Source: Nanobdellati archaeon
GTDB taxonomy: Archaea; EX4484-52; GLR71
Assembly (NCBI GenBank): GCA_019429005.1
Contig: JAHYJR010000005.1
Coordinates: 54,581 to 118,580 of the forward strand
Reading direction: 5' to 3'
DNA length: 64,000 nucleotides
Shown here in pieces: positions 17,301-52,745 of the stretch (positions within the stretch are counted from its first letter, which is position 1; each line of letters starts with the position of its first letter). The translations under genes and the position numbers were made by a program. The notes below the pieces were generated by a model. That model searched no databases. It was not told where the DNA came from and saw nothing but the letters and a program-made list of their open reading frames with translations.

Positions 17301-20300
17301 TGATTGATCTGGTAATACATATATATACGCTTCAGTTATATTGTATCCTTTAGCTGTTCCATTCACAGTTATGTTTTGGTATGATTGCAAATTGCTAAAT
17401 GATACTAATCCATTTATTGTTGTATTTTTAATGTAGAAATCTGAACCTATATCTATTAATGTTTCTGCATCAGTTGGATTTGATTGGTTTATGAACACAT
17501 CTTCAATTATAATATAATCTGTACCACTTATAATTAATGGAAGTGTACTGAAGTCATATGTGTTAGGTGTTCCATCATAATTTATTGTTACATCGTTGAT
17601 TGTAAATGACACCATTGTAATATTGTGTATGTTACTTAGATTATCTTTTATATTTAAAACTGTACCAATTTCAAGTATTGCTTTACCCTTTGTTTTGATT
17701 TCGACATCGTCTATTACAGGGAATCCTGTTTCATCAGTTATATTTAATATTAGATTTCCTGCATGTGGTGGTAATATTATAGGTGTTGATGTCATGTTTA
17801 TTATTGTTCCTGCTTGTGCTTCCGTAATCAGTATATCTGTGGTGTTTGTATAATAATTGGATGGTATGTCTAGTGCCGTCAATGTATTTATGCCTGAAGG
17901 CACATATTCAAATGTGTGTGTGTTGTTTACTGTATAATTGAGTAGATATGGTCCTGTTAAACCTATGATTTGTGTGTTATTTATTATGATTCCTCGCGGA
18001 TCTGATGCTGTAAGAATCAATACTGTTTTATTTATGTTGAATGTTTGATTATAGGTGATACCCGCTGTAGTTATATTTATATTACCAGCTGTATTTCCAC
18101 AACCTAGGCTTGATGCATTTACATTTATATCAAAATATCCTGTTGGGACTTCACTAAACATTGTTAAATTATTGAACGTTGTATTTGTATCATTGTTTTT
18201 GATACCTATTATGTTTGGATTTCGCTCTATATAGACTGTGGCGTTTGTTGTATTAGATAAATTATCACACGTTACATATACTTCAAGTTCTGTGCTAGTA
18301 AGTGATTTTATAAATGTCAAATTATTGAAGTAATGGTATAAACTGACTTTTGCATTTTCTATTGGTGATATTGCCATATCATAGTTTTGGCTGTCTTTAA
18401 CTTCAATTTCAAATACGGGTTCAATTACAAAATTATATGGGCTTGTACCATATCCTGTGCAACCTTGTTCACATTTTGTTATGTCTGTGTATTGGCTTGA
18501 ATGTGTGGTTATCTTATATGTGAGTGTGCTTGGTATTTTTGCACTGAAGTTTCCATATATGTCTGTGCTTTTATAATATGAGAATCCCTTAATTGTATCA
18601 TATATTATTATGTCTGCATTTTGTACGGGTTCATCGAAAAGTGTTTTAACTGAACCTGTTATTGTAATTGAACCATCAAGTCTTGGATTTATAACTATTG
18701 ATTGATTTGCAGGATATCCTATCCCTAGAAGACTACTATTCCATGCAAGGTATCCACTTTTATCTACAAGTATCTTATAATTTCCCGAAAGTCCTATCTG
18801 GTAATCAAAGTTACCATTTGAATCTGATTGTAGTCTGTATATTGTCGTATCATTTGAATTATATTGTATTGTCATGTTTGCATATGGTATTTTTACAATG
18901 TTATTGTTGTATATTTCAGAATCTGTAACAATACCTGATAATCTGATGTTTCCTGTCATTTGTATTACAAAATCACGAGGGTTTGTCGGACTTGCAATTT
19001 GTTGTTCAGTATTATTGAACAAGTAAAAGCCATCAGCTATATAATAAACGTTATAATTGAGTGTCCCTGGAACATTTATACCAAATTCACCATTTGTATT
19101 TGTTGTTGTCTTATATAATTTTGTGCTGTTTATGTCATCTACATATACGAACGCATTAACTAGTTCTTGTTTGACTTTACCTGTATTTTGATCAAGTACA
19201 GTTCCATTTATCCATGAGTTTCCTTTTATCGTAATGTCAACTATATTTGATACTTGTGTTGTAGTTTCGATTGTTGTAATTGTATTATAACCATTTTTTT
19301 CTGCAGTTAGATAATATTCGCTGTTACCTTTCATCCTTGTATTGTATTCACCTGTATTGTTTGTTATGAGTGCATATGTGAAATATCCGGATGGTGTTGT
19401 TACATACGCTGTTATATTTACAAGATTTGCAGGTATTTCTGCAGGGTTATATTCATCTGCATAATTAAGGTTGATATCTATAACTTTTCCAGAGAGTGTT
19501 GCAGTACCATTTAATCTGATATCACCAGAATAGTTTCCAGTTAATGCAAGTGGTGCAGTTGCAGTATATCCATCGGAAAGTATGGATAACGCGTAACCCG
19601 TATTATCTCTAATCTTAAACGAGAATTCGCCAGTATTATTTGTAAATGTTGTGTATTTTATATTCTGATCAAAATCTTCAACAACTGTTATTGTTGCGTT
19701 ATATATAGGTTGCGTATTCCAATAATCTGTTATTTTTGCATATACTGTTGTAGGACCTTCAAGTGTTGTGCTTATTTCTTCAAAATCACCATAAACTAAG
19801 TTATTGGTGCTACTTTCTCCAACTATTTTGGTATTATATTTATTATGTGTGATTTTGATTCTATATCCATTTGTATTATTAAGCAGAGTTTTTGGTACAT
19901 ATAATTCATAATATCCATTTACATCTGTCAATATTGTGTAGAAATATTTGTTGTCGTATCCAAAAGGGTTTCCATTGGAATCAACAATTGTAACATTTGC
20001 ATTTTGTACTTTTATCGTAGTATTGTATGTATCTCTAAGAGTTCCATAAATTTTTGCAGTACCTTTTATAGCAATATTAAGTATTTCATCTTGTCTTGAT
20101 GTATATGGTATATTATAAGAATATGTTGAACTTTTGTATGTATCATAACTTGTATGATTTATTGTCACATAATAACTAGTATTTGTAGCAGTGACACTTC
20201 CAAACATAAGTATATTTCCATCTGAATCTGTTTTACAGATATTATCAATGCATCTGTAATTACCATAATTATTAATTGTTTCATCTATTCCAACTTTATA

Positions 20301-20732
20301 GACTTTTACTTGAGCATCTTTTATCGGCATACTATTTGCAAAATCTTTTACCGTTATGTTAAAGCTTGAGTGTGTGTTTGGTATAACTTCTAGAGATATT
20401 GGGTTGTTCGTATAATAACAATTTGAACCATTTAGGACTGTTTGATTAACATATCCTACTGCGGCAATTTTTAATGCGTAACCATCTGCTGTTGTTATAT
20501 TTTCTGAAAAGATACCATTAGGACTTATAGTTGTTGTACTGATAACACCAAAAACACCGCTTGAGTTACATTCAAGTATGTCTATAGTTCCGGCTGTTGG
20601 GTATGAGAATCCATCTATTATGTCTTTAAGACTTCCCTGAACATTATAATCTACAGCGTATGTTGTATTTATTCCATATATTGCAAATAAGGCTAGCAAT
20701 ATTGTGATAATAAGAAGTATTTTAGATTTCAT
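11328..20732 (-). CDS. Giant membrane-anchored surface protein with carboxypeptidase-regulatory-like repeats
   Basis: A 3134-residue exported protein. Residues 1-26 are a Sec signal peptide (MKSKILLIITILLALFAIYG). Most of the ectodomain is a series of roughly 80-100-residue beta-sandwich repeats of the CarboxypepD_reg/PEGA type, each built as V/I-x-G-x-(V/L)-x-D followed later by T(D/N)xxGxY and ending in a hydrophobic (G)Y motif. Asn-Thr/Ser sequons are very frequent, suggesting heavy N-glycosylation. Near the C-terminus come a CVGCG motif with a Ser run, a stalk domain, a cysteine cluster (CGNGICDIDEDCSCGDC), a single membrane helix (about 3000-3020) and a cytoplasmic tail of about 110 residues with a proline stretch and a predicted coiled coil. 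SD GGGAGGT precedes the ATG, which overlaps the stop of the upstream winged-helix gene. Likely an adhesin or S-layer-type protein. Confidence 0.85.
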   Translation of the reverse strand: MKSKILLIITILLALFAIYGINTTYAVDYNVQGSLKDIIDGFSYPTAGTIDILECNSSGVFGVISTTTISPNGIFSENITTADGYALKIAAVGYVNQTVLNGSNCYYTNNPISLEVIPNTHSSFNITVKDFANSMPIKDAQVKVYKVGIDETINNYGNYRCIDNICKTDSDGNILMFGSVTATNTSYYVTINHTSYDTYKSSTYSYNIPYTSRQDEILNIAIKGTAKIYGTLRDTYNTTIKVQNANVTIVDSNGNPFGYDNKYFYTILTDVNGYYELYVPKTLLNNTNGYRIKITHNKYNTKIVGESSTNNLVYGDFEEISTTLEGPTTVYAKITDYWNTQPIYNATITVVEDFDQNIKYTTFTNNTGEFSFKIRDNTGYALSILSDGYTATAPLALTGNYSGDIRLNGTATLSGKVIDINLNYADEYNPAEIPANLVNITAYVTTPSGYFTYALITNNTGEYNTRMKGNSEYYLTAEKNGYNTITTIETTTQVSNIVDITIKGNSWINGTVLDQNTGKVKQELVNAFVYVDDINSTKLYKTTTNTNGEFGINVPGTLNYNVYYIADGFYLFNNTEQQIASPTNPRDFVIQMTGNIRLSGIVTDSEIYNNNIVKIPYANMTIQYNSNDTTIYRLQSDSNGNFDYQIGLSGNYKILVDKSGYLAWNSSLLGIGYPANQSIVINPRLDGSITITGSVKTLFDEPVQNADIIIYDTIKGFSYYKSTDIYGNFSAKIPSTLTYKITTHSSQYTDITKCEQGCTGYGTSPYNFVIEPVFEIEVKDSQNYDMAISPIENAKVSLYHYFNNLTFIKSLTSTELEVYVTCDNLSNTTNATVYIERNPNIIGIKNNDTNTTFNNLTMFSEVPTGYFDINVNASSLGCGNTAGNINITTAGITYNQTFNINKTVLILTASDPRGIIINNTQIIGLTGPYLLNYTVNNTHTFEYVPSGINTLTALDIPSNYYTNTTDILITEAQAGTIINMTSTPIILPPHAGNLILNITDETGFPVIDDVEIKTKGKAILEIGTVLNIKDNLSNIHNITMVSFTINDVTINYDGTPNTYDFSTLPLIISGTDYIIIEDVFINQSNPTDAETLIDIGSDFYIKNTTINGLVSFSNLQSYQNITVNGTAKGYNITEAYIYVLPDQSKHVDLTLKNNELVLFIEGSSVQGANVTLWSGPVGSTIAQNSTGSNLQVIGITDVGGDGENVTFRGLLWGTYNISISLDGHNNYTGEITLDQSTNFSDGFRYVELDLQQTFTRIIVRDSSTQSDLNNINVSMVKENNPAENYTNITSGGEVLLGDGTLLSGTYNITINGTKEGYSLTQYQVNLTLGSQNIQTVYIDENLFEILVTSDGINPLQGANVSIWTDSSMTSIINNAQGIALTALTDINGIVTFNKLLSEAWALLSINMSGYTQWNDTTIVIDYGNNTYPTPVNLGGTTIINVYIYDEINKIITATTEGTIINLLNSTDDIVMSTTDSDKDGYVQFVSTTLIPGNHKISADGRHNGYNLNETELFSITIGTVTTKNATLTENYLVINVTNGTAQVDDNVIVSLLENDILPYTSDITNQTTNSTATLRRVVVGDPGEVYNLVIDGTQIGYNSTIIQNYQTQLTWGRNNQTIVIEENKLHLNITSNGSNIEFDMYGNGTTITFNGMALESDPFNATFKKIPYNNYTLNIDGTMQGYENYTHPQLIEINKTTTSYTININMTVLEVNVTNATYYPIGDANVTVYMSDNVTAAVDAMNNTLSGLTFADGTRVFERVLPCMDCNISVIVSNKTDGQNSTRFSIFAGDNLSIWIDPPLNDDPLNTNNPSLMGLDESVMFYDYHKGINRSNIYKSIIGDNWNITIQATAGGSGIPLANVSIYKGDSNFLDEYLIASNLTNSGGNITFTLPDGFYDIRIDGQFAGYGIDLIEKLPVGKLVFSEANTNEFGEIQIKADSKYYVRVDAKGYSQYDSLDTYGVEGGLYNGTYTNLTELNGKEKINLTGLATVEGFITDKYCTHNDCQFVEDAVVSFGQYSSGELQNVRYTTKTDSNGYYSIAASPYIPGATLYNDLKQNYDILIEADGRYLKDVLKNNVLYNSSTSEYNFSLIGQGTVSGTIYNKQLFDEKNIQTPIVNVGIKFKKGISKYYESITDIVGHFIISINPLFSPWDLTLYVTNFETTITDLFNGTETDMELYMYQGGAAINRFNVQSDTNLTLANISITFNPYYSCIDETTSCILTTNENGTVQRHMEASTQNAKVDGGYLGYSVANIMYTSITNQENEINVTLNTTKVNLIFKDESLGSVENLGIAMSLYNCTNVQNQKGLCYFNNITNDNGSVMFSLVPTGTYSISFASNIFAYDGNNTFNLTVTDQMSGKNNEITYLLNNTEILIKFVNDTGSTVENISLSLSGPTGLVYSGTSGTGITVSNIPYGQYTVVPNAMQILSLGFVNKSYLLEAIFGEDEINGNNQTMTLNDTRIKFNITNETGAFEDVNVTIYKNTDIALNGFNKTLTGLTDNNGILTFNNVITDKYWNLNSITPNYKYVIDADNLGFGYYESNINIQENIPENGLNIINKLNITPVTVYMNLYDVKDMYNISRETIKDDTIFIYVWNDTGLTVDAQGQTLIKSTAIGELDFKYLYKNNYSAIGTSVNGTYNIFQNKHIFETKTTNFVTTDVYMNRSKYAYLNITVKNQQGTLLNNAKLTLMYNTVILNVSTNMTTNITTSTNIAGLGMIGVNTTKYTEALLIQAEYTISDKTYITQSSIFNISESELKQITVTIIQDIPATTQTTGCVGCGSSSSSGFSIPLPYAGSKDSKGTEADFMSYTFKKTPDQIRKTLLYEVRTMIKSLTGQIVTEDDMNTISEITNEVYNDISAKRYQTLENGKYIVTLEINYTGKKIIDQLIISEQLPDSLKLDKVTVLANNGKITVNTLLNSINIMFENVSSDEDIITIRYKINDYTFKSNGFLEFSKPLIFATGFYIPPIIISDSVCGNGICDIDEDCSCGDCAASPLCLVDTTEDGFIWAKYLAILALLGVSTIIIYKYLKNRKLMNYESKYDSIVNEKPELSPILPPPSPPFMSESVNEIRSFERTIENNIESIPRLVAEQTRTFENTVSNDLNNINKQVMSDINQIRDVVSEDTEQIIPRRLDQI

Positions 20733-32068: not shown

Positions 32069-35000
32069 CTAATTTATTTTATTATTATTATTTGGATTAT
32101 TTGTTTTTTCATCATCTTTTTTGGATTTATAGCTTTGTTTCCATATTAAATAGATTATTGTGAGGAGGATAATAATATCTAAAATAAGAGATCTATCTAT
32201 ATCAAAAGAACCCGATTTATCTTTAACTTCTTTAGCATCTTTAACCTCGAAAGTTCGCGTTGATATGGCTTCTCGTCCGGTATAAGTTACAAATGCTTCA
32301 AATGTATACATACCTTTTTCTGTGCTTTCTGGAAGGTAAAGGCTTAATGTTCTTTCTTTTTTATCTACAACAGCAATGGTGTCTGTTGATTCTGTAATCA
32401 GTTTACCACTCATAGTTTTTATTGCATAATTTATAACAACATCAACTTTTGCTTTAGGACCACCCATATTTTCCATTGTTAATAGTGCCATAACAGGATT
32501 TCCAACTGTTACAGTTCTTGTGATAATGTCCACAATTATATCAAATAATGGTATATTAACATCTGTATACATCTCGGTTCTAATGTGTTGCTGATAACTT
32601 GGATCATAACCACCAATTATTGTTGGAAGTAACCATGAACCACCACCCAATATTGTTGCATTATAAATGATAGTAATTGTATCATTATTATATAATAATC
32701 CATCCCAATTTGTATAATTATATGTGAAATTATAATGGTAAATGTCAACAAGAACACCATCTGGTAATGTATCACTTCCAGGTGCACCTAGGTAATAATC
32801 CGAATCATTTAAGAATTGATACGTCTGATCTGTTGACGCATTATAATATGTGATATTCTTATTATTTATTGTTGCACTATTCGGCAAGAAATCTGCTATC
32901 AATATTTCACCCATTGGATTTAATCCGATTTCTTGTATTATTATTGTGACTGTTATATTCTGTGGATTTACAGGATTAATCCATATATATTTAGTACCTC
33001 GAAGCACAGCTTCAGACGCCATAATTGTTTTAGTTATATAACTTTCATTAATATTTTCATTTATATCAATAACAGACGCATTTGTATACATTGTCCTGTT
33101 TTCACCAGGTGTTAGTTTAGCTGAAACCATCAAATATTTAAATTCAATAGAATCATTTTCATCTAAACCAGAACCGATATTTGTCAGAGACATATTTGTT
33201 ATATTGACCTGTATCTGTGTATTGTTTGTTCCAATAAGATCAATAATTTCAATGTTTAATCCTGTTGTGATTTCTGTAATTTCAGCTGTTGTGTAGTTCT
33301 TGAAATTAACAGTTATACTTGTTGAGTTATAGAAATCATAAGGTATTTCATCAGTGATGTTTATTGAATATACTTCATTTTGTGTACTGTTTATTTTGAT
33401 TGTGGTTGTCACATTTATTGTCTCATTCTCGTCTGAGACGATGATGTCAGGTGATAATATTTTGGTTATCTGTGTTGAAATACTATTTTGAGTTTCATAT
33501 GTAAAATATAATATTTCAGTTGAATTCATATTTCCAGAAGTGTCGTTCGCATATACCTGCCACCTTATTGTCGCACCTACTGTTGAATTGACCCACTTAC
33601 TCACATTAGACCAGTTACCTGTTCCTGTCATGTTGACATAACTATCATTCACAAATGTTCCAGTTCCATTATCAAATGAAAATATGTATCCTGAAAGTGC
33701 ACTATCTGACCAGTAAAGGCTGAACAGGACATCAATCCCTGCACTTGTTGAGTCTGTCTGGTTAAGTGAATATAATGGTGCGGTTACATCTTTGATTGTA
33801 ATATTAACAGTTTCTGTAACATTATCTGTAATATAAGCACGGTATGTTGTCGCATTATAATCGACAAAAAATTCCCAAGTTGTATCTCCTAGACCTGTAG
33901 CATTCACAGTCCAATTATTGGTACATTCATCACCTGCACGCATATCAGATAAACAATTAGAATATAGTCCATCTTGTGGATTATCGGATGTTGTATAAAA
34001 TGGTCTTGCACCAACAGTCATAGAAATAACTTTTGTAGTTACATCAAAGGTCCATGAACTAAATGTGGTATTACCATCACCATCTCCTGCAAGGATACTG
34101 ACATTCCATGTACCAATCATATCTATTACATAATACGATGAATTCCAATATGTAGTCCAGAGTGAACTGTTATAATACATTGTTCCATTTTCATTATTTA
34201 TTACTTTTGTGCCTAAGGGATTTATCAATGTGAAATTAACCCATTCAATACCGGGTCTATTATAATCACTGACAATTGTATTTATCGTGATATTATTCCC
34301 ACCTATTGGCTGGTATGGATATGTCTGATTAGTTTCTATTACCGGTGGTGCATAAGCAAGGTCTGTAACTGTTCCATACCACCCCCATTGACTATTAATA
34401 TATGTTGAATCTGGTAGTGTTATGACCTTAAAATAATTACTATCATTAGTTTTCCAACAAGAGACCCATTCAGTTTCTGCAAAATAATCTATATTACCAT
34501 AAGTCCGTCCATCTGTTTTATTGCAGATGATTGAATCATAATCTACAATACCAAGATTTACGGCTGTAGAGCCACCTGTTATATGATTTCGGATATTAGT
34601 TGCTGTACCACTTCCCCAACCACCATAAGGTGCTGAACTATCTCCAAAGGTCATATCACCCAATAGTGAATCATGGTTTGCTGTTATTTTATTGTCAAGA
34701 TCATAGAATGCTCCATTTACAAATAATTCTGCATGCATTGTATCTCCAATCCTAATTGGATCTTCCCATAGAATTTTAATTTCATTATAATATCCTAATG
34801 AATTAAACGCAGTTATTGTTGCATTATATTCTATAGTTAATGCATCATGAACAATCCATGTCCCAATCCATTGTCCTTCATAAATAGTACCGTCTGTTAA
34901 ATTTAATGTGATTGTTTCAATCCCACCCATATCAATAGTCATTAATACAATTCCTTGTGAGTCTTTAGCACGAATATCAAAATGCATTGTATCATTATTG

Positions 35001-38000
35001 ATTACACTTTTAGGCCATAATTTAGTATCAATAAATACAGGTCCAATTGATTCTGTTTTATCTTCTTTTTGTTCAGGATCTAAAGTCGCATTAAATTGTC
35101 CGCATTCACCATCAAGACAAGTTATTTTACTTTCAAATGTAAAAAACTCATTTTGAGATACATTTGTCGGTATTGTAGGGGTTACTAATTCTACATTTAT
35201 ATGTCCCCATGGCACAAACCACGAGGTTTGGTTAGACTTAGAAACTGTGTCATCATTTATACACGTTCCAGTTATATTCCATTGACCTGAATCCGTTATA
35301 TTAATCCCAGAAGGTAATGTATATATCCACCAATCTCCATCTGTAGATGTTGCATTATTTGCGTTTAAAAATGTGGTATCATCAATTATATTTTTTACAA
35401 GGTATGTTGCATTTGTGATATATTGTCCACCGTCAGCAGTACAGTTCACTCTAATTTGAGTTATATTTTCATAATATGAATAATTACAAATACCCCATTC
35501 AGAACTGCTATTATAACATTCAACAGCCCCTATTATTGGTTCTGAACTGACAGATATTATTGTGCTATTTTCTCCAGTAATACTATCTTCATCTGTAATA
35601 TTTGTTTTAATTATGTATGCCCCATTTGAAGTTGGTGCATTAAAGGTTATGTTGTAATATCCAATATAATTTGTTCTGGGACCATATTCAATTGCAAATG
35701 TAATATTATTTATTTCAGCAGTCTGCCATATATTATCTGTCGTAAAATTAATACGATATTGTAGGGTATTATCAATACCAAGACCACATCCCGACTCAAG
35801 AAGTGTATCATTATAAACTTCACACCAGCTAACATTATTTTCTGTTGATACAAAAACAGTAAAATTTGTTCCTGTTGGTATTGTTGCATACCACACAGGT
35901 TTCACAGTCAAAAGTGTTCCGGGTATATATACTAAATCCGAATCATAAGTACCATTTTCATTATATTGGATTGTATATTTTACAGTTATATTGGTTGGAT
36001 AATAATCATCATTCAGTGCATATGCACTATGTGTTATACGTGTCACTTTACTATTTTTTTCAGGATTTCCAGCATTATCTATAGTCTCTTCAAGAACATC
36101 ATTCACATATATTGTCCACGTTGTACCATCAAATAATACATTGACTTTATATTCTGTATTATCACTGATAACAACGCCAGTATCAATAGAATATGCTGTA
36201 TTTCTAACATCACTAAATGAGGGATTACAGATCCCATCATAAACATATAAATGATTATTGCCTTCATAACGATATATTGTAAATATACCCAGATTACAAC
36301 CTTCAGTACCTACAAATGTTACAATTCTTGAATGTCTGTCCAAGAATGATGATTTTGTCTGAAATAAGGAATAATTGAAATAAAAGGTATAATTTATAGT
36401 ATCTGGAGGTGTTTCAAAATCATGATAAAAACCATTATTTGGAACATTATATGTTGAGATACCCCAATCACTTTTTGCATATGCGGTAAAAATATTCTTA
36501 TCTACATCCGGGCCGAATTCACCGCTAACTAAGGTCTCTATGTATGGATACATCATATGACTGGTAGCTAATTGATCTGCCGTATTATTCATTGTCTGGT
36601 TTTGAACATATGTGCCAGATACCCAATACGTACTGTTTTTCCAATCATAAGATGCGGTGTTATTCATCAGACTATCATTCAAATATACATTAACTCTTTG
36701 ATCTATAACAGCATTTGTTGAACCTTCATATAGTGCAAACCCTGAAACAAATACATCTTCATTAGCTGCATAAATGAGTTTATTCGGATTTAAACTGATT
36801 GTGATATTATCTGAATTGAAAAAGTGATGGTGTGTCGCTTCTGTATTGATGTTTCCAATTGTATCGTTACATTTATACCAAAAGTTATAAGCTATCTTAT
36901 TTGAGATACTAGTATAATTATATGCGTGTGTTATTGTTTCCTGTCCAATTTCAAAATCAGTTCCTGTACCATATTCAAAGTCACTTATTGTATCGTTCCA
37001 TTGACAATTTGCATTTGTATCTGTTGTGATGTTTAACCAGATCCATGTATTTTCAGTGTATATGTTTGAATCATTATTTGGGTATACGATAGTTATTATT
37101 GGTGGAAATATGTCTGTCATTATATTTGGTTGTGGGAATATTCCAGAATGTATTGTAGGCATCCATAAATTAAGCGTACTATAATCGCCTTTTGTAAAAA
37201 CAAGAAGATAATTTATTTCATCTGTTGAACTTGCAGATGTTGGATTATATTCAAGGCGTAAGCCTTCATTATCATTTGTTGAATCGTTCCAAAATCCAAC
37301 AGTACTTATCGTTATATTTTCGGATTCATTAAATCTGACTAAAGATATAAAGCTTGTATTTGTTGAATCTTCTGTTATTGAATTGTCAAATATCAATGAA
37401 TAATTGCTGATAAGCATACTATAATCAGTCCATTGGTCTGTTGGTAAATCGGTTATAAGTCCCGTAGAACCATTTTCAAGTGCATAATTATCATCAATAG
37501 CAGAAGAACCCAAAGTTCCAGTAATGATTGGGAATAGTGAATTTATATTTGTTATATTTTCATCAAAGTTATGTATCCTATAGTTAAGATAATCAGATGT
37601 ACTATTAATAATTTTTACAGTGATATTAAATGTGGTTGTATAAACTGTAGTGATTTTTGAACGTATCATAAACTCATTACCCCCTGATTGAACTTCCCAA
37701 CCTGAACCAAAATCAAAATAACTGTTAGTAGGTGGTGAAGCAGCACCATCATCAAGGAAAAAGGGTCCACCTGTAACGGAATCTCCTGTATTTTCTGTAA
37801 GTTCAACACCTATCCAGAAATTACCTGATGTTATTTCAATATTATATGAAGATAGGTCAATTGTCGCCCAATTAGAATAAAAAGAAGTAATTGTTGTATT
37901 GAATGGCTGTATCAAATTATTTCCTGGCACGCCTTCATTATCTTCATAGATATGTATAATATATACTGTTGATCCAACTGTATTTATATCATAAAGTTGA

Positions 38001-41000
38001 ATATTTGTACTCATAATTTTATAAGGGTAATTCGTTGTGGATGCTGTGAACTTACATGCAATTGTATCTCCAATAAATCTATTTGTATAAAATGATGACG
38101 CTGCACCATCATCATTTTGTAATGTCTCTTCTGTTGGACTATCTGGTACAAAACGATATTCTATTTGCATATCTAGTTCAATTTCAGCTAAATTTTCACC
38201 TTCTTGTGAAAATGTCTTAGATGTATATTTAGAAGTGACCATATTGTTTATTACAATATCACCTAATCCAAATAATGTATTATCTGAAAGTGTTTCAATA
38301 TTATATGATTCATTTAATTCTTTATTTTCCAAAAAGATGATAGCTTGTGTTGTATTTATAGTTCCATTATATACAATTATTAGATTTTCGCCTTCAATAA
38401 TATAATCCTCCGTATTATCAGCATCATAATCTAATTTATATGCTGAAACATTTGATCCTGAATAAATGTGTATTGTGGTGTTCTCAATTAAAGAACCATA
38501 AGGATTTGTTGCGTTAATTTTTATAGTATAAATTCCAGGTGCGTCTGTTATTTGAGATGTCCAATTACCATAATATCTACTTGAACCACTACCACTATAA
38601 GTGAGATTTATCGTATTAACAATGTCATCTGTATTATTAATTATACTTAAAATAACATCTCCGTCTGTAACATTTCCTGCTTGATTTGTAACTTTTGTAT
38701 CTATGAAAATTGTATCATTTATTGTAAAAAGTTTATCTAAATATAGGTAGTTTGAATCTCTATAAGTTTCAATAATTATATTTGTTGGTAGTGGAGATAC
38801 AACGTCAATTTCTATGTTTGGGTATGGGTCATCATAATCAATATAACCTTGTGTGTCATTAACCCAAGAAGTATTTACTGATAAGGTCCCACCTGTTGAT
38901 CCTACATTGAGTACAACACCATAAATACTTCCACCCGAACCACAAACTCCTGTTGAATTTGATGTAGATATATTTGATGATGTTCCATTTGGATATTTTA
39001 TTTCAATCCATGTGCTGCTTATTGGATATGATTCAATCGTTATGGTGTGGTTTATACAAATTTCAGTATTTATACTTACTGTTGTTGCATTAACTGTAGT
39101 TTGATTTGTTTTTGGTTTTATATTGACTGTTATTGGACTATTAACTGTATTTCCTGTAGTAGTACATTTTTTTGTAACTGAATCATCGCATGCAAATGCA
39201 TACCAATTTTGTGCACCTGAACCTGTACTTACCCAAGTACAAGTATTTTCAGAACCATCTGCAACTGTGGATGACGACACACAATATGCACCACCATCAC
39301 AAGTTGGGGGTAATCCACCAGTAACTGCATCGGTTTTACATATGGCTAAGTACCAAGTATCACCATTTATATCTGTTGCTGTTGCGTTAAATGTAACTGT
39401 ATTTCCAAGTAGTACAGGATCTGGATTGTCTTTGGGAGTTACAGTAAAAACTGGCGGTGCTGGTGCTGCATCAATCCACCAAATGTTTGTTGTAATTTTA
39501 TTTTGTTTATTTAAAATCCCAGTTTGTAATGTTAATATCACTGGTGCATTATACCATTCAGATGTATGGGTCACATTTAACGTATAATTCATCTGATACT
39601 GTTGTCCATCTAAAAAATAACTTTCATTCCATCTTGTCCTTGCAAACAGTTCATCTGGTCTATCCCATAATTCAAAAGATCGTGTTGTTAGGTTATCTTG
39701 ATTAATAAGTAAAGAAAGTGCTGGGTCTGAAATATTATACGATTCTAATCCTGATGTTAATGATAATTCTAAAGTATCATTTTCATAAGTTGTATTTATG
39801 CGTATATTGTAATTTATGACTGTTATTTCAGATTCACTATATTCATTGTTACCTACATTTGTAATTGTTGGTGTTACAAGAATCTCTCTCCAATCTGTTT
39901 CAAGGTAATATTCTAATGCAATCTCAATTCTATTGTTTTTATCTTTGAATGTTGTAAATCCTGTCAAGTTTGTATATGTTATATTATCTGTTGTTGCAAT
40001 CCATTCCCATGTGCCATCATCAATACAATATTGATACCATACTGTTGATTTTAATCTTGCACAATAACTTGTGTATCCCCAATATGCATATTGATCGTTT
40101 GTTATCTGAAAACCATTTGTTAGGTTGACATAATAACTATCGTATGTATTCCAAAGATGATATATACTCTCTACATATTCATATCCTATATCTGTTGTCG
40201 GATCAATATTTACAGGGTATGCTCTTAATGGGTCATTCAACCACATATAAGGTGTTTTTATGGTTATAAATATAGAATTACCTTGTTTTTTAAGTTGATA
40301 TTTTAACTCTGTGTAATCATATTCATTGTCGTAAGCATACGGTTTTTGCATGTAGAATAATGTATTTTCTGTGTTTTGTTCTTTGAACAAAATCTTTTTT
40401 GTAGTTTCAATTGTGCTTTTTTTATCCCATAATGCGTCGTTGATATAAATATCTAAATTTGCAGTATAATCAATAAGAAAATCCATATCAAGTGTAATGT
40501 TATTTCCTGCCAGAACATCTGGATGCGGTTGCGTTGGTTTTTGGTCTAGTATCAAATTCTTTTCTAACTTATCTGTTTTTACTGTATATGTAAGATTGTA
40601 ATTGTTTCCAAAAATGTTAGGATATACAAATGTATCACCTTGTTCAACACCTATAATTGGTTGTGTCTTATTTATCTCTTGAGTGTATCCATCTGAATTT
40701 CTATAGTTTAATGATATCGGCTGGTATGTAACATAACCTTCAGCAGGATTGGTTTTATTTATTGTTTCTTGACTAAATTTAAATTTAATTGCATCTAAAT
40801 TTAGAGGGTCTTGTTTAAAATATGTCTTATGTGTATTGTTTTCAACACCATAATCATATTCTAGTTCATCTTGTGGTTCTGAAGTTATCATCGTATTTGC
40901 TGTAATATATTCAGTTCTATTATAATAATTTTTTAGTTTGCCTATGTATGTTGTGTATGTCCCATCTCGGTTTTCAAATTTATCAAAGTTTTGACCACGT

Positions 41001-42493
41001 TGAGATACGGTTTCTTTAGTTTTTTTTTCAGTTTGAACTTCGGTTTTAGTTTGATTTTCGGAGTCGTTCAAATTAATCATATTCAAAATGATACTTGAAC
41101 TATTAATCATAGTTCTATCAAAACTATAGACTTTGATTGTAACTTCATTTTCTCCAGAAGTATAATTTATAGGTACAGTCCATTTGTATTCCCATAAATC
41201 CTCAGAGCTCATTTCTAATTCTATATCTTTTCCGTCTATGGAAAGTATTGTTTTTTTAATAATTTGGCTATTTCCTAATGCATAAAATGAAATCGTTTCA
41301 CCTTGATTTATTTCCGTTTTATTTGTGTATAGGTTTATGTTTGCAGGTTTATTTTCATATTGTATTTCTAAGAAAATGCTGTTTATGTTAATGCCTTTTT
41401 GTTTTAGATTATTATCTGAATCTTGTGTTTGATTTATCGTTTCATTGTTTGGTTGAACTTGTGTTGTTTTTGTAGATTCTTTATTATTTATAACATTATT
41501 TTCTTCAGTTGTATTCATCTCATCTGAAGTTATATTTTGTTCTGTGCTTGTGTTTACTTCAGAATTATTAACTGTATTATTTTCCATATCGATTTGTTCA
41601 TCTGTACTATTATTTTGAGCTACATTAGCGTTTGTTATGTTTTCAATATTTGTAATGTTATCTATAATTTCTAGATTTTTCGTGTTGGTTATATTTTTGT
41701 TAGTTTCATTTGAAGAGTCCGTCGTTGTATTTGTTTTGTTATTTATTGTATTTTCAATATTCAGATTGTCATTTGTATCATTTTCGTTTTCAAGATTATT
41801 ATGTATTGTAATATTTTCATTTGATTCATTCAAGGGTTCAATTCCAATTATGTTTTCATCAATACTATCGTTTAAGCTACTGTTTTGTTTATCTTTATTT
41901 GTTATTCCATTTAACGTTTCATTTGTTTGTTCTGTGTCATCTGTTCTTAGCACATTACCTGTTATCAAATTAGCACTTTCTTTTTTTTGCACGAATTCAA
42001 TACGTATTGTTGCATCGTCAATGTTTTGTATTGCTTGTATATGTGTAGATAAATCACATATAGATTGTTGTGGTTTTGTTGGTACTTCAAAATTACAAAT
42101 ATGTATATATGTTCCATTTATTTGATAATATATATTGCCATCTTGCTTAATGTCAGAATACCAATCTAGCACCAGGTTTAATCCTATTATATTAACAAGA
42201 TTTTGATTTTTATCTGAGAACGAGAATTCAATATATGAAACAGAATCATTTAGGCAGTCGTTTTGTGTTAGGAGTATGTCTTTTATTAATAATTGACGGT
42301 TTGGATTATTGTCATTGTTACATATCATAATATTTTGTGGACTTAATTGGTATTCTTGTCCTGTATTTGATGCTAATAAATAACCTGTAAGATTCGTAAT
42401 TGGACCCATTAAAACTAATAATAATAAGAATATTAGGAGAATGCTGATGCTGGCATAAATTCTATATTTCGTGTCGATATCTAGATTATACAC
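32069..42493 (-). CDS. Giant surface protein of 3474 residues
   Basis: The N-terminus has a single hydrophobic segment (about 12-40, YASISILLIFLLLLVLMGPI) acting as signal or signal anchor. Residues about 165-370 are an Asn/Thr/Glu low-complexity stretch (NETNKNITNTKN and similar), probably an extended glycosylated linker. There follow many Ig-like or CARDB-like beta modules, a lectin-like region (about 2000-2150, with TFVGTEGCNLGIF and TTWTIYVNDVLEE), a long Thr/Asn-rich part, and a C-terminal membrane helix (LDIIILLTIIYLIW) with a Lys/Asn tail. A block near the C-terminus (GTKYIWINP, DYYLGAP, DPSYQQHIRTEMYTDVN) resembles the equivalent block of protein A, linking all three. The start is GTG with a GGTG SD 7 nt upstream. 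Confidence 0.8.
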   Translation of the reverse strand: MYNLDIDTKYRIYASISILLIFLLLLVLMGPITNLTGYLLASNTGQEYQLSPQNIMICNNDNNPNRQLLIKDILLTQNDCLNDSVSYIEFSFSDKNQNLVNIIGLNLVLDWYSDIKQDGNIYYQINGTYIHICNFEVPTKPQQSICDLSTHIQAIQNIDDATIRIEFVQKKESANLITGNVLRTDDTEQTNETLNGITNKDKQNSSLNDSIDENIIGIEPLNESNENITIHNNLENENDTNDNLNIENTINNKTNTTTDSSNETNKNITNTKNLEIIDNITNIENITNANVAQNNSTDEQIDMENNTVNNSEVNTSTEQNITSDEMNTTEENNVINNKESTKTTQVQPNNETINQTQDSDNNLKQKGININSIFLEIQYENKPANINLYTNKTEINQGETISFYALGNSQIIKKTILSIDGKDIELEMSSEDLWEYKWTVPINYTSGENEVTIKVYSFDRTMINSSSIILNMINLNDSENQTKTEVQTEKKTKETVSQRGQNFDKFENRDGTYTTYIGKLKNYYNRTEYITANTMITSEPQDELEYDYGVENNTHKTYFKQDPLNLDAIKFKFSQETINKTNPAEGYVTYQPISLNYRNSDGYTQEINKTQPIIGVEQGDTFVYPNIFGNNYNLTYTVKTDKLEKNLILDQKPTQPHPDVLAGNNITLDMDFLIDYTANLDIYINDALWDKKSTIETTKKILFKEQNTENTLFYMQKPYAYDNEYDYTELKYQLKKQGNSIFITIKTPYMWLNDPLRAYPVNIDPTTDIGYEYVESIYHLWNTYDSYYVNLTNGFQITNDQYAYWGYTSYCARLKSTVWYQYCIDDGTWEWIATTDNITYTNLTGFTTFKDKNNRIEIALEYYLETDWREILVTPTITNVGNNEYSESEITVINYNIRINTTYENDTLELSLTSGLESYNISDPALSLLINQDNLTTRSFELWDRPDELFARTRWNESYFLDGQQYQMNYTLNVTHTSEWYNAPVILTLQTGILNKQNKITTNIWWIDAAPAPPVFTVTPKDNPDPVLLGNTVTFNATATDINGDTWYLAICKTDAVTGGLPPTCDGGAYCVSSSTVADGSENTCTWVSTGSGAQNWYAFACDDSVTKKCTTTGNTVNSPITVNIKPKTNQTTVNATTVSINTEICINHTITIESYPISSTWIEIKYPNGTSSNISTSNSTGVCGSGGSIYGVVLNVGSTGGTLSVNTSWVNDTQGYIDYDDPYPNIEIDVVSPLPTNIIIETYRDSNYLYLDKLFTINDTIFIDTKVTNQAGNVTDGDVILSIINNTDDIVNTINLTYSGSGSSRYYGNWTSQITDAPGIYTIKINATNPYGSLIENTTIHIYSGSNVSAYKLDYDADNTEDYIIEGENLIIVYNGTINTTQAIIFLENKELNESYNIETLSDNTLFGLGDIVINNMVTSKYTSKTFSQEGENLAEIELDMQIEYRFVPDSPTEETLQNDDGAASSFYTNRFIGDTIACKFTASTTNYPYKIMSTNIQLYDINTVGSTVYIIHIYEDNEGVPGNNLIQPFNTTITSFYSNWATIDLSSYNIEITSGNFWIGVELTENTGDSVTGGPFFLDDGAASPPTNSYFDFGSGWEVQSGGNEFMIRSKITTVYTTTFNITVKIINSTSDYLNYRIHNFDENITNINSLFPIITGTLGSSAIDDNYALENGSTGLITDLPTDQWTDYSMLISNYSLIFDNSITEDSTNTSFISLVRFNESENITISTVGFWNDSTNDNEGLRLEYNPTSASSTDEINYLLVFTKGDYSTLNLWMPTIHSGIFPQPNIMTDIFPPIITIVYPNNDSNIYTENTWIWLNITTDTNANCQWNDTISDFEYGTGTDFEIGQETITHAYNYTSISNKIAYNFWYKCNDTIGNINTEATHHHFFNSDNITISLNPNKLIYAANEDVFVSGFALYEGSTNAVIDQRVNVYLNDSLMNNTASYDWKNSTYWVSGTYVQNQTMNNTADQLATSHMMYPYIETLVSGEFGPDVDKNIFTAYAKSDWGISTYNVPNNGFYHDFETPPDTINYTFYFNYSLFQTKSSFLDRHSRIVTFVGTEGCNLGIFTIYRYEGNNHLYVYDGICNPSFSDVRNTAYSIDTGVVISDNTEYKVNVLFDGTTWTIYVNDVLEETIDNAGNPEKNSKVTRITHSAYALNDDYYPTNITVKYTIQYNENGTYDSDLVYIPGTLLTVKPVWYATIPTGTNFTVFVSTENNVSWCEVYNDTLLESGCGLGIDNTLQYRINFTTDNIWQTAEINNITFAIEYGPRTNYIGYYNITFNAPTSNGAYIIKTNITDEDSITGENSTIISVSSEPIIGAVECYNSSSEWGICNYSYYENITQIRVNCTADGGQYITNATYLVKNIIDDTTFLNANNATSTDGDWWIYTLPSGINITDSGQWNITGTCINDDTVSKSNQTSWFVPWGHINVELVTPTIPTNVSQNEFFTFESKITCLDGECGQFNATLDPEQKEDKTESIGPVFIDTKLWPKSVINNDTMHFDIRAKDSQGIVLMTIDMGGIETITLNLTDGTIYEGQWIGTWIVHDALTIEYNATITAFNSLGYYNEIKILWEDPIRIGDTMHAELFVNGAFYDLDNKITANHDSLLGDMTFGDSSAPYGGWGSGTATNIRNHITGGSTAVNLGIVDYDSIICNKTDGRTYGNIDYFAETEWVSCWKTNDSNYFKVITLPDSTYINSQWGWYGTVTDLAYAPPVIETNQTYPYQPIGGNNITINTIVSDYNRPGIEWVNFTLINPLGTKVINNENGTMYYNSSLWTTYWNSSYYVIDMIGTWNVSILAGDGDGNTTFSSWTFDVTTKVISMTVGARPFYTTSDNPQDGLYSNCLSDMRAGDECTNNWTVNATGLGDTTWEFFVDYNATTYRAYITDNVTETVNITIKDVTAPLYSLNQTDSTSAGIDVLFSLYWSDSALSGYIFSFDNGTGTFVNDSYVNMTGTGNWSNVSKWVNSTVGATIRWQVYANDTSGNMNSTEILYFTYETQNSISTQITKILSPDIIVSDENETINVTTTIKINSTQNEVYSINITDEIPYDFYNSTSITVNFKNYTTAEITEITTGLNIEIIDLIGTNNTQIQVNITNMSLTNIGSGLDENDSIEFKYLMVSAKLTPGENRTMYTNASVIDINENINESYITKTIMASEAVLRGTKYIWINPVNPQNITVTIIIQEIGLNPMGEILIADFLPNSATINNKNITYYNASTDQTYQFLNDSDYYLGAPGSDTLPDGVLVDIYHYNFTYNYTNWDGLLYNNDTITIIYNATILGGGSWLLPTIIGGYDPSYQQHIRTEMYTDVNIPLFDIIVDIITRTVTVGNPVMALLTMENMGGPKAKVDVVINYAIKTMSGKLITESTDTIAVVDKKERTLSLYLPESTEKGMYTFEAFVTYTGREAISTRTFEVKDAKEVKDKSGSFDIDRSLILDIIILLTIIYLIWKQSYKSKKDDEKTNNPNNNNKIN

Positions 42494-47905: not shown

Positions 47906-48073
47906 GCCCTGATGGCTCAGTTGGTTAGAGTACTGCCTTGGTACGTCCGTGAAATCCGGCGTCGCTTTGAGTGATAGTTAAAATTTCGTTTTGAAGTCAC
48001 TCTGTAATTATTTATGCGTCGGGTTTGTGGCACAAAAAGGCAGAGATCGCGTGTTCGAATCTCGCTCAGGGCT
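47906..48073 (+). tRNA. tRNA-Thr (GGT) with a 94-nt intron at 37/38
   Basis: The acceptor arms GCCCTGA and TCAGGGC pair perfectly, with discriminator T73. The D arm is GCTC/GAGT. The anticodon stem is CTGCC/GGCAG with loop TTGGTA + A and anticodon GGT at 47940-47942. The intron runs 47944-48037, at the canonical site after position 37. The BHB is recognisable but relaxed: 3-nt bulges (TAC and AAA) around a central helix TTG/CAA with one mismatch. The T arm has one U-U mismatch. The intron contains a stable inner hairpin (GAGTGA...TCACTC). A T-rich stretch follows. Confidence 0.92.
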
Positions 48074-50937: not shown

Positions 50938-51059
50938 CCCGCTGTAGCTCAACCTGGTAGAGCACTCGGCTGTAGATTAGCACGTTTTTAAGTGTTTTTC
51001 ATTTAGTCTCTGCTCAGATAGTAACCGAGGTGTTGCCTGTTCAAATCAGGCCAGCGGGA
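50938..51059 (+). tRNA. tRNA-Tyr (GTA) with a 48-nt intron at 37/38
   Basis: The acceptor CCCGCTG/CAGCGGG has C1-G72, as expected for archaeal tRNA-Tyr, with discriminator A. The D arm is GCTC/GAGC, the anticodon stem CTCGG/CCGAG, and the anticodon GTA is at 50972-50974. The intron runs 50976-51023. The BHB reads cleanly: central helix CTGT/ATAG, 5' bulge AGA and 3' bulge TAA, cut after the second base of each. The T arm GCCTG/CAGGC with loop TTCAAAT is intact. Confidence 0.94.
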
Positions 51060-51774
51060 CTCTTTATTTTTTAATTAGGTATACAGCTATATTTAGGCAT
51101 TTCTTGTTTTTAATGTCTATGTCGTGTATATATGCATTAACTCTATAATATTATTTACAATTTGGGTCTATTTTGTATTATGTTGTAAATTTACACAGTC
51201 TATAGTGTGTCTGCGTGCTTGTTGTGTTGTTAGGTTGTATTTAAATAGTTGATACTTTGTGTAGCACATATGTTGTTTAATCATATAGGCTGTCTACATT
51301 TATGGATAAAATGTTATGATGTTATTTCAATTTGGTATTAATCTTAGTATAATGTGATCTGTTATAGTATACAGGTTTATTGGTAAACTACAGGGTTATA
51401 GTCTTAATATATTATAATATTAGTATATAATAATATAATTATATTAATATTTAATTATATTAATATTTAATTATATTAATATTTAATTATATTAATATTT
51501 AATTATATTAATATTTAATTATATTTTTATGTTCATATATTACTAACATATTATAATACTATATTTATACAATTTTAGTATGTTATAAACTTATAAAATT
51601 ATAATTAAATAGAGCTATATTGATATATCAATATATAATTATAATTAAGTCTGATTATAATCTTATATCTTTTTATATGTAATTTTATGTATTTTTAATT
51701 GATTCGCACCTAATTCTTTCAATTTTACAGAAATTGTAGGAAACGTTTATAAAGTTTTATGGTTTAAGATATCT
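51060..51774. other. 715-bp gap between tRNA-Tyr and 5S rRNA
   Basis: No convincing ORF. It is AT-rich, with a 16-bp tandem repeat (51443-51522) and weak palindromes further right. Nothing resembles a tRNA or protein gene. Confidence 0.6.
51443..51522. repeat. Tandem repeat, five perfect 16-bp copies
   Basis: The unit ATTAATATTTAATTAT is repeated five times without mismatch (80 bp). Its unit length equals that of the repeat at 10369-10480 though the sequence differs. No spacers are present. Confidence 0.92.
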
Positions 51775-51890
51775 TGTTGACGGTCACAGCGAGAATGGTA
51801 CACCCGAACCCATCCCGAACTCGGAAGTTAAGATTCTCAGCGACCTGTGTTGTACTGCTTTTTTGTGGGAAGCTCATGACGCTGTCAACA
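51775..51890 (+). rRNA. rrf: 5S ribosomal RNA
   Basis: The ends pair (TGTTGAC with GTCAACA). The conserved internal part GAACCCATCCCGAACTCGG followed by AAGTTAAG is the loop B/C segment of 5S rRNA. The length of 116 nt is normal. No 16S or 23S gene is in the window; 5S lies alone between tRNA genes, as in several archaeal groups with dispersed rRNA genes. Confidence 0.93.
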
Positions 51891-51913: not shown

Positions 51914-52049
51914 GTCCTGGTAGTGTAGTTGGCCTATCATTCAAGACTGTCACTCTTGTAACCCGGGTTCAAATTGTATGAAATAATCTATTTTTAATAA
52001 ATTTAACACTTATTGATTGGTTTCAGACATGAAAATCCCGGCCAGGACG
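51914..52049 (+). tRNA. tRNA-Asp (GTC) with a 62-nt intron in the T loop (59/60)
   Basis: The acceptor is GTCCTGG/CCAGGAC, the anticodon stem CAAGA/TCTTG, the anticodon GTC is at 51949-51951, and the discriminator is G. The T stem is CCGGG (51963-51967) with CCCGG (52037-52041). The T loop is interrupted after TTCAAA: the intron spans 51974-52035 and the last loop base T is at 52036. A classic BHB is readable: T stem, 3' bulge AAT, 4-bp helix TTCA/TGAA, 5' bulge AAT, then an intron helix (TGTaTGAAA with TTTCAgACA). Cleavage after the second base of each bulge yields the normal loop TTCAAAT. Confidence 0.93.
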
Positions 52050-52174
52050 CCAATATTACGAATATTATAATCCGGATAAATAATAGTGTTTCATAATGTT
52101 TTAATGATTGTTATGTAAAAGTTTTTAAAGTTTAATACTATAATCATAAGACTTATGAATCTTGTATACGTACT

Positions 52175-52323
52175 GGGCCTGTAGCTCAGTCTGGCAGAGC
52201 ACTGGACTCTTAATCCAGGTGTCGAGGGTTCAAAAAGGTAAATGTTATCATACAATGTTGTTTTAATTATTATGTAATTATAACTTTGTTATGCATTTGC
52301 TCTTGGAAATCCCTTCAGGCTCA
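52175..52323 (+). tRNA. tRNA-Lys (CTT) with a 75-nt intron in the T loop (59/60)
   Basis: The acceptor is GGGCCTG/CAGGCTC with one G-U pair, the D arm GCTC/GAGC, the anticodon stem CTGGA/TCCAG, anticodon CTT at 52209-52211, discriminator A. The T stem is GAGGG (52224-52228)/CCCTT (52311-52315). The intron is 52235-52309. The BHB reads: bulge AAA (5') and AAT (3') around the helix TTCA/TGGA, extended by AGG-TAAATG with CATTTG-c-TCT. Splicing restores TTCAAAT. It is the last gene before the RNA polymerase operon; rpoH starts 26 nt downstream. Confidence 0.93.
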
Positions 52324-52349: not shown

Positions 52350-52745
52350 TTGAAAGAAAATGCAATCGATAAAACGACTTCAAAAAAGACCCCTGAAAAG
52401 GCTTCTGTGAAAGCATCTCCTAAAAAGGCTGCAGTAAAAGCATCTCCTAAAAAGGCTGTTGATAAAGCATCTTCTAAAACAGTTGTTGAAAAACCAACTG
52501 AACTTATGGCACATAATTTAATACCTAAACATGAGATTCTGATTGATGCTCAAGTAAAAACACTTCTTGAAAAATATCATATTGAAAAAAGTAATTTACC
52601 ACATATTTTTGATACAGATGTTATAGCTAAACAGCTTGGTGCTAAACCCGGCGATGTTATCTGTATAGAACGAGCATCAAAGACTGCAGGAATCTCTTTA
52701 TATTATCGTCTTGTTGTTTCTGAAGAAGGTGAAGATTATGATTAA
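52350..52745 (+). CDS. rpoH: RNA polymerase subunit H with a Lys/Ala-rich N-terminal tail
   Basis: Archaeal RNA polymerase subunit H, equivalent to the C-terminal part of eukaryotic Rpb5. The conserved domain is residues about 55-131 (LIPKHEILIDAQVKTLLEKY, KQLGAKPGDVICIERASKTAG, YYRLVV). Before it is a 50-residue extension of Lys/Ala/Ser/Pro built from a 27-bp DNA unit repeated three times (52407-52487, KASPKKA(A/V) pattern), resembling a histone H1-type basic tail. Subunit H is normally about 75-85 residues. The TTG start is supported by an AAGGT SD 7 nt before it. The end overlaps the B'' start by 8 nt. Confidence 0.9.
   Translation: MKENAIDKTTSKKTPEKASVKASPKKAAVKASPKKAVDKASSKTVVEKPTELMAHNLIPKHEILIDAQVKTLLEKYHIEKSNLPHIFDTDVIAKQLGAKPGDVICIERASKTAGISLYYRLVVSEEGEDYD
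52407..52487 (+). repeat. 27-bp repeat, three copies, in rpoH
   Basis: Three 27-bp units at 52407, 52434 and 52461, the first two nearly identical (one difference in the first codon and another in the last), the third diverged. They encode VKASPKKAA, VKASPKKAV and DKASSKTVV. Confidence 0.85.

Follow-up and report, generated by a model that had tools for sequence, protein, structure and literature searches.

The window, a stretch of 64,000 nt, belongs to the 1.08-Mb assembly (a MAG of 15 contigs, 93.6% complete) of a DPANN archaeon whose closest named relatives are MAGs that carry the labels Candidatus Nanohaloarchaea, Aenigmatarchaeota or DPANN archaeon. Behind the 5S rRNA gene, the genes for tRNA-Asp(GTC) and tRNA-Lys(CTT) follow each other, both interrupted in the T loop (Table 1). 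The order 5S-Asp-Lys-rpoH-rpoB'' is kept in relatives, and the RNA polymerase subunit genes downstream of the array, in which the large subunits are split, read rpoH-rpoB''-B'-A' (H, B'' and A' assigned by Pfam, B' by position). AT-rich tandem repeats with units of 16, 32 and 48 nt lie between tRNA-Tyr and the 5S rRNA gene (51396-51588), and 27-bp coding repeats (52392-52493) give RpoH a lysine/alanine-rich N-terminal extension. Two giant ORFs lie on the minus strand of the window, one of 3134 aa (11328-20732) with carboxypeptidase regulatory-like domains and one of 3474 aa (32069-42493) with no Pfam match; both probably encode surface proteins.

Table 1. Coordinates of the interrupted tRNA genes, their splice motifs and neighbouring RNA genes in the window.
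Feature	Position	Strand	Remarks
tRNA-Thr(GGT), long canonical intron	47906..48073	+	anticodon loop TTGGTA
tRNA-Tyr(GTA), canonical 37/38 intron	50938..51059	+	same array, upstream; anticodon loop CTGTAGA = GTA; labelled Asn by ARAGORN
5S rRNA	51776..51890	+	upstream of tRNA-Asp
tRNA-Asp(GTC), whole gene	51914-52052	+	interrupted at T-loop position 59/60
tRNA-Asp 5' exon	51914..51973	+	acceptor 5' strand to A59, ends GGGTTCAAA, TTCAAA; tRNA model matches
Asp central BHB helix, 5' strand TTCA	51968..51971	+	paired with TGAA 52030-52033
tRNA-Asp T-loop intron, 62 nt, between 59 and 60	51974..52035	+	BHB, fold; T-loop intron in relatives too
Asp intron helix, 5' strand TGTATGAAA	51975..51983	+	paired with TTTCAGACA 52021-52029, 1 mismatch; sequence, fold
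Asp central BHB helix, 3' strand TGAA	52030..52033	+	paired with TTCA 51968-51971
tRNA-Asp 3' exon	52036..52052	+	T60, T stem, acceptor, G73, encoded CCA; sequence
tRNA-Lys(CTT), whole gene	52175-52323	+	interrupted at T-loop position 59/60
tRNA-Lys(CTT) 5' exon	52175..52234	+	tRNA model matches; intron-free ortholog in G001
Lys central BHB helix, 5' strand TTCA	52229..52232	+	paired with TGGA
tRNA-Lys T-loop intron, 75 nt, between 59 and 60	52235..52309	+	BHB, fold; site filled in g3, f4, f6-g10, empty in G001
Lys central BHB helix, 3' strand TGGA	52304..52307	+	paired with TTCA
tRNA-Lys 3' exon	52310..52323	+	comparison with relatives

The last bases before the intron are ...CCGGGTTCAAA in tRNA-Asp and GAGGGTTCAAA in tRNA-Lys. 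Beyond it tRNA-Asp resumes with T-CCCGG-CCAGGAC (to 52048), then G and an encoded CCA, and tRNA-Lys with T-CCCTT-CAGGCTC-A. The exon pairing of tRNA-Asp across its intron is perfect in both the acceptor (GTCCTGG/CCAGGAC) and the T stem (CCGGG/CCCGG). At the junctions of each intron a 3-nt bulge, a 4-bp helix and a 3-nt bulge are found with all four central pairs formed; the bulges, with the standard cut marked ^, are AA^T and AA^T in Asp and AA^A and AA^T in Lys, and the Lys intron helix is AGG.AAATG/CATTT.CTCT. A bulge-helix-bulge (BHB) motif of equal or better quality arose in 0.24% of dinucleotide shuffles for each of the two introns, and RNA folding places the T stem and the intron helix on either side of the junction in Asp and Lys (z -2.1 and -3.8). 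Cutting at the standard bulge position joins TTCAAA to T, yielding a seven-base T loop that is present uninterrupted in the tRNA-Lys of a relative (G001) and in the Asp genes of families f2 and f5. The placement of BHB introns in both T loops by the initial annotation, coordinates included, is thereby confirmed by pairing, shuffles, fold and relatives, and its splice position restoring TTCAAAT gains support from the exact joined sequence in G001. Stronger evidence still is that the position of the introns is conserved across genera. The Asp and Lys introns are real and very likely spliced.

T-loop introns defeat ARAGORN, which detected neither gene. A model of the tRNA 5' half matches both; with the Rfam tRNA model Lys scores at threshold and Asp weakly. 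Standard annotation loses such tRNAs, here the sole detected tRNA-Asp. Genome searches for a second, intact tRNA-Asp(GTC) or tRNA-Lys(CTT) gene, part of the refuting case named in the initial annotation, found none; since the genome is 93.6% complete, the assembly could lack such a gene or a further subunit of the endonuclease.

The interruptions are not confined to this array. In the host genome 41 tRNA genes were recognised, one of them doubtful, and such counts are lower bounds because the initial whole-genome search, which was not exhaustive, missed the Thr(GGT) of the window. T-loop insertions outside the window were sought with a script anchored on known 5' halves that allowed one mismatch in 12 pairs. 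Further T-loop introns were found in Gly(TCC) (73 nt), in Ala(TGC) (37 nt, with a relaxed motif; a relaxed Ala(TGC) intron is also present in G002) and in Glu(TTC), which has a canonical intron in addition to its 161-nt T-loop intron. Arg(GCG) at C11:22510 perhaps carries a sixth, with TTCA/TGAA and a 6-bp intron helix, but its acceptor stem is poor. Introns in the D loop occur in Leu(TAA) and Ser(GCT), about a dozen tRNA genes have canonical introns, and Lys(TTT) is intact. A possible tRNA-Ile(UAU) with a canonical intron was also observed (L021, G000:C13:44508-44629), its anticodon depending on uncertain intron borders; no tRNA-Ile2(CAU) was found by the tRNA search, with its lower-bound counts, and Ile(UAU) has been reported in N. 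equitans and Korarchaeum (PMC8450103).

T-loop introns of Asp and Lys reappear in related genera and families, where their sequences are very different. In Asp the site is filled in the host genome (genus g1), in G001 (g2), in three g3 genomes, in f3 (G010), in f4 (G011) and in f6-g10, and the T loop is uninterrupted in f2, f5 and f6-g12; family f7 is mixed, with an uninterrupted Asp-like gene in G019 and an intron in a G014 tRNA read as Asp. These Asp introns range from 32 to 152 nt and are unrelated in sequence, the BHB being kept in most and relaxed in f4. In Lys the intron is present in the host, in six g3 genomes, in f4 and in f6-g10, and absent in G001, whose tRNA-Lys reads GAGGGTTCAAATCCCTT, exactly the predicted joined product (GGGTTCAAATCCC) and thus an exact empty site. 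The RpoB'' tree places G001 within family f1, just outside the group of the host and g3, indicating either an exact loss in G001 or multiple gains.

Some introns of these relatives contain conserved RNA. The g3 Lys T-loop introns (L081-L085 and L087, about 100-170 nt) enclose a structured RNA made up of a GCG/TGC helix and two hairpins, in which 12 of the 31 predicted pairs have changed on both sides; it could represent a small RNA encoded by the intron. The canonical 37/38 intron of tRNA-Lys in f2-f7, absent in f1, has a stretch GGGTGAAGCTTTTAACCAGAC...CTGTAGAAGATA strongly conserved across families (loci L097-L099, L101, L108, L109, L147 and L149-L167), possibly a guide RNA.

Evidence of spread between tRNAs comes from sister families. 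No pair of T-loop introns in the host genome is more similar than shuffles, and near-identical introns in different tRNAs, as in the transposed sets of Thermoproteales, were not seen there; they were found in f7 (G014 and G019) and partly in f3. The f3 genome G010 holds 17 T-loop introns, several of them alike, such as those of Glu, Gly, Ala and Pro with TGCTGCGG...CCGC(A/G)GCTGA. In f7 most T-loop introns form one 110-170-nt family (L191, L193-L196 and L210-L221) inserted in Ala, Ile, Thr, Asp, Leu, Pro and Arg tRNAs, with one copy at the canonical 37/38 site of Ser(CGA) and an inverted copy in Ser(GCT) with 91% identity over about 79 nt, which argues for DNA-level movement or inversion in place. 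Their fold is conserved, with compensatory changes, and consists of several helices and a polypyrimidine/polypurine core. Across sequence variants the second purine tract mirrors the pyrimidine tract as its parallel complement, which suggests a purine-motif triple helix or an H-DNA mirror repeat. Outside the order, the T-loop introns of three tRNAs in G044 have similar ends. From the sequence comparisons the spread between tRNAs in f7 and f3 is clear. One may speculate, with a good deal of reserve, that the T loop in this order serves as the homing target of mobile introns of a new kind, structured elements that would enter various tRNAs at 59/60 (with at least one copy inverted and one at 37/38) and be removed by a single alpha-type endonuclease, the Asp and Lys introns of the window being old, decayed products of this process.

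The initial annotation had proposed to determine the endonuclease type, and one alpha-type gene was found in the host genome. This sole PF01974 gene (C11:246150) encodes 187 aa with a PF02778 N domain and a catalytic C domain, and the solved structure closest to it by sequence is the M. jannaschii alpha4 enzyme (1a79). The RtcB ligase is likewise encoded by one gene. Across 34 genomes of the order the PF01974 search gave exactly one gene in 27, none in 7 and two in none, and PF02778 gave one gene in each of the six genomes tested, although Pfam-based searches could overlook a highly diverged beta subunit. At 187 aa the endonuclease is not a three-unit fusion of about 390 aa (epsilon2); its sequence points to a single-gene alpha type, presumably a homotetramer (alpha4). 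In the enzymes of the order a 7-aa insertion directly precedes the catalytic His (PYKxGxKxxKEHTK), and the loop whose position is read from the alignment as CSL/ASL is about 4-5 aa longer than in M. jannaschii (GKxxEEEKxxY) and shorter than the KPK-type loops of two-gene enzymes. T-loop introns occur independently of this insertion, which was dropped as their explanation, since G044 (L232, L233, L234) and G041 (L231), both outside the order, have T-loop introns and a single endonuclease without it. G050 has the insertion too, and the few weak matches inspected there included no clear T-loop intron.

According to PMC6379350, efficient removal of relaxed introns is limited to (alpha-beta)2 and epsilon2 enzymes, and PMC4033280 restricts alpha4 enzymes to canonical introns. 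To the alpha4 rule, strict BHBs at an unusual position need be no exception; the relaxed Ala(TGC) intron would be one, and its motif suggests some latitude of the enzyme. A broad-specificity endonuclease, which the initial annotation considered necessary, is not needed for these two strict BHBs.

The most plausible hypothesis, in which we have high confidence, is that the tRNA genes for Asp and Lys hold archaeal BHB introns at 59/60 whose splicing is carried out by proteins, with cutting by the single alpha-type endonuclease and joining by RtcB, and that the introns are old insertions at a recurrently colonised site. In the precursor, TTCA of the T loop would find its partner, TGAA or TGGA, close to the intron's 3' end, and the helix so formed would lie between T stem and intron helix. 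The one-gene, presumably homotetrameric endonuclease would cut each 3-nt bulge after its second base, and ligation by RtcB would restore TTCAAAT, so that a normal T loop and elbow could form. Archaeal tRNA promoters are located upstream, and interruption of the B-box-like T loop would therefore leave transcription unblocked. The site is nearly identical in all tRNAs and has been colonised repeatedly in the order. Cleavage and joining in the cell, alpha4 assembly and the mechanism of gain are what we infer from these data.

A different history, in which one mobile intron spread between the neighbouring Asp and Lys genes of this genome, would account for their shared position in adjacent genes and has a parallel in f7 and f3. 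Each intron, however, has its own same-position counterparts in relatives, the distribution of the Lys intron is unlike that of the Asp intron, and the two are no more similar than shuffles, so that spread between these genes is not shown; we regard it as unlikely, bearing in mind that an old common origin could be masked in AT-rich sequence that diverges fast. The shared origin or spread suggested by the initial annotation is not seen in this pair; in the sister families spread is clear. It is far less credible that the genes are pseudogenes whose insertions are never removed, with intact copies elsewhere. The incompleteness of the genome leaves some room for such copies, but the exon stems are perfect, the BHB is kept while the intron sequence turns over, the insertion site is identical across genera, and the search for another tRNA-Asp came back empty.

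Self-splicing of a group I-like kind can practically be dismissed. The catalytic core of group I introns usually takes over 200 nt, for which 62 and 75 nt are too short, the Rfam scan gave no group I match, and a BHB lies exactly at the junctions. Group I introns as such are known from archaea (PMC6125680). An overlooked broad-specificity (alpha-beta)2 or epsilon2 enzyme performing the splicing is a somewhat more serious proposition, since the literature ties relaxed and non-canonical introns to such enzymes (PMC6379350), and still an improbable one given the genome counts and the 187-aa protein described above.

In the literature, non-canonical tRNA introns are associated with endonucleases that have special loops and are either fused or made from two genes. 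The DPANN lineage described here combines numerous T-loop introns, most with strict BHBs and a few relaxed, with one small alpha-type gene detected, which makes the rule of canonical introns only for alpha4 directly testable. Furthermore, tRNA introns have spread recently in the sister families, inverted copy included, a rare case that bears on archaeal intron gain. Measured against the open-access literature, the T-loop preference, the DPANN host, the single-gene enzyme and the structured mobile introns are new.

The Asp and Lys introns themselves belong to the known class of archaeal BHB tRNA introns, and non-canonical introns have been described elsewhere. The statement in the initial annotation that 59/60 introns are known mainly from Thermoproteales was too narrow, since T-arm or other non-canonical introns are described in Caldiarchaeum (PMC3293823), Thaumarchaeota (PMC8450103), Korarchaeum and ARMAN (PMC4033280) and Asgard archaea (PMC11291895). 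In Thermoproteales non-canonical BHB introns are accompanied by large-scale intron transposition (Fujishima 2010, as relayed in PMC4033280 and PMC4090602). BHB splicing, positions outside 37/38 and several interrupted tRNAs per genome are common to both systems, and similar intron sequences in different tRNAs are shared by the sister families. The present host is an unrelated DPANN archaeon whose non-canonical introns are concentrated at 59/60, it has one alpha-type endonuclease gene in place of (alpha-beta)2, and the shared intron of f7 is a 110-170-nt structured element, once inverted. In the Asgard lineages Atabeyarchaeia and Freyarchaeia 92-95% of tRNA genes are interrupted (PMC11291895); intron-rich tRNA sets with many non-canonical positions are a shared trait, whereas the lineage is another and the passage on it names no single preferred site. 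ARMAN-2 (Micrarchaeum), with its epsilon2 endonuclease (PMC12397907), is likewise an ultrasmall DPANN archaeon with non-canonical tRNA introns, but the enzyme here is a single 187-aa unit with a slightly longer loop at the putative CSL/ASL position and a 7-aa insertion before the catalytic His. Caldiarchaeum subterraneum, with introns in the T, D and V arms (PMC3293823), shares the T-arm location, and a mobile-element origin has been proposed for it; it belongs to another lineage and presents one tRNA-Thr case, as against the recurrent invasion of one site described here.
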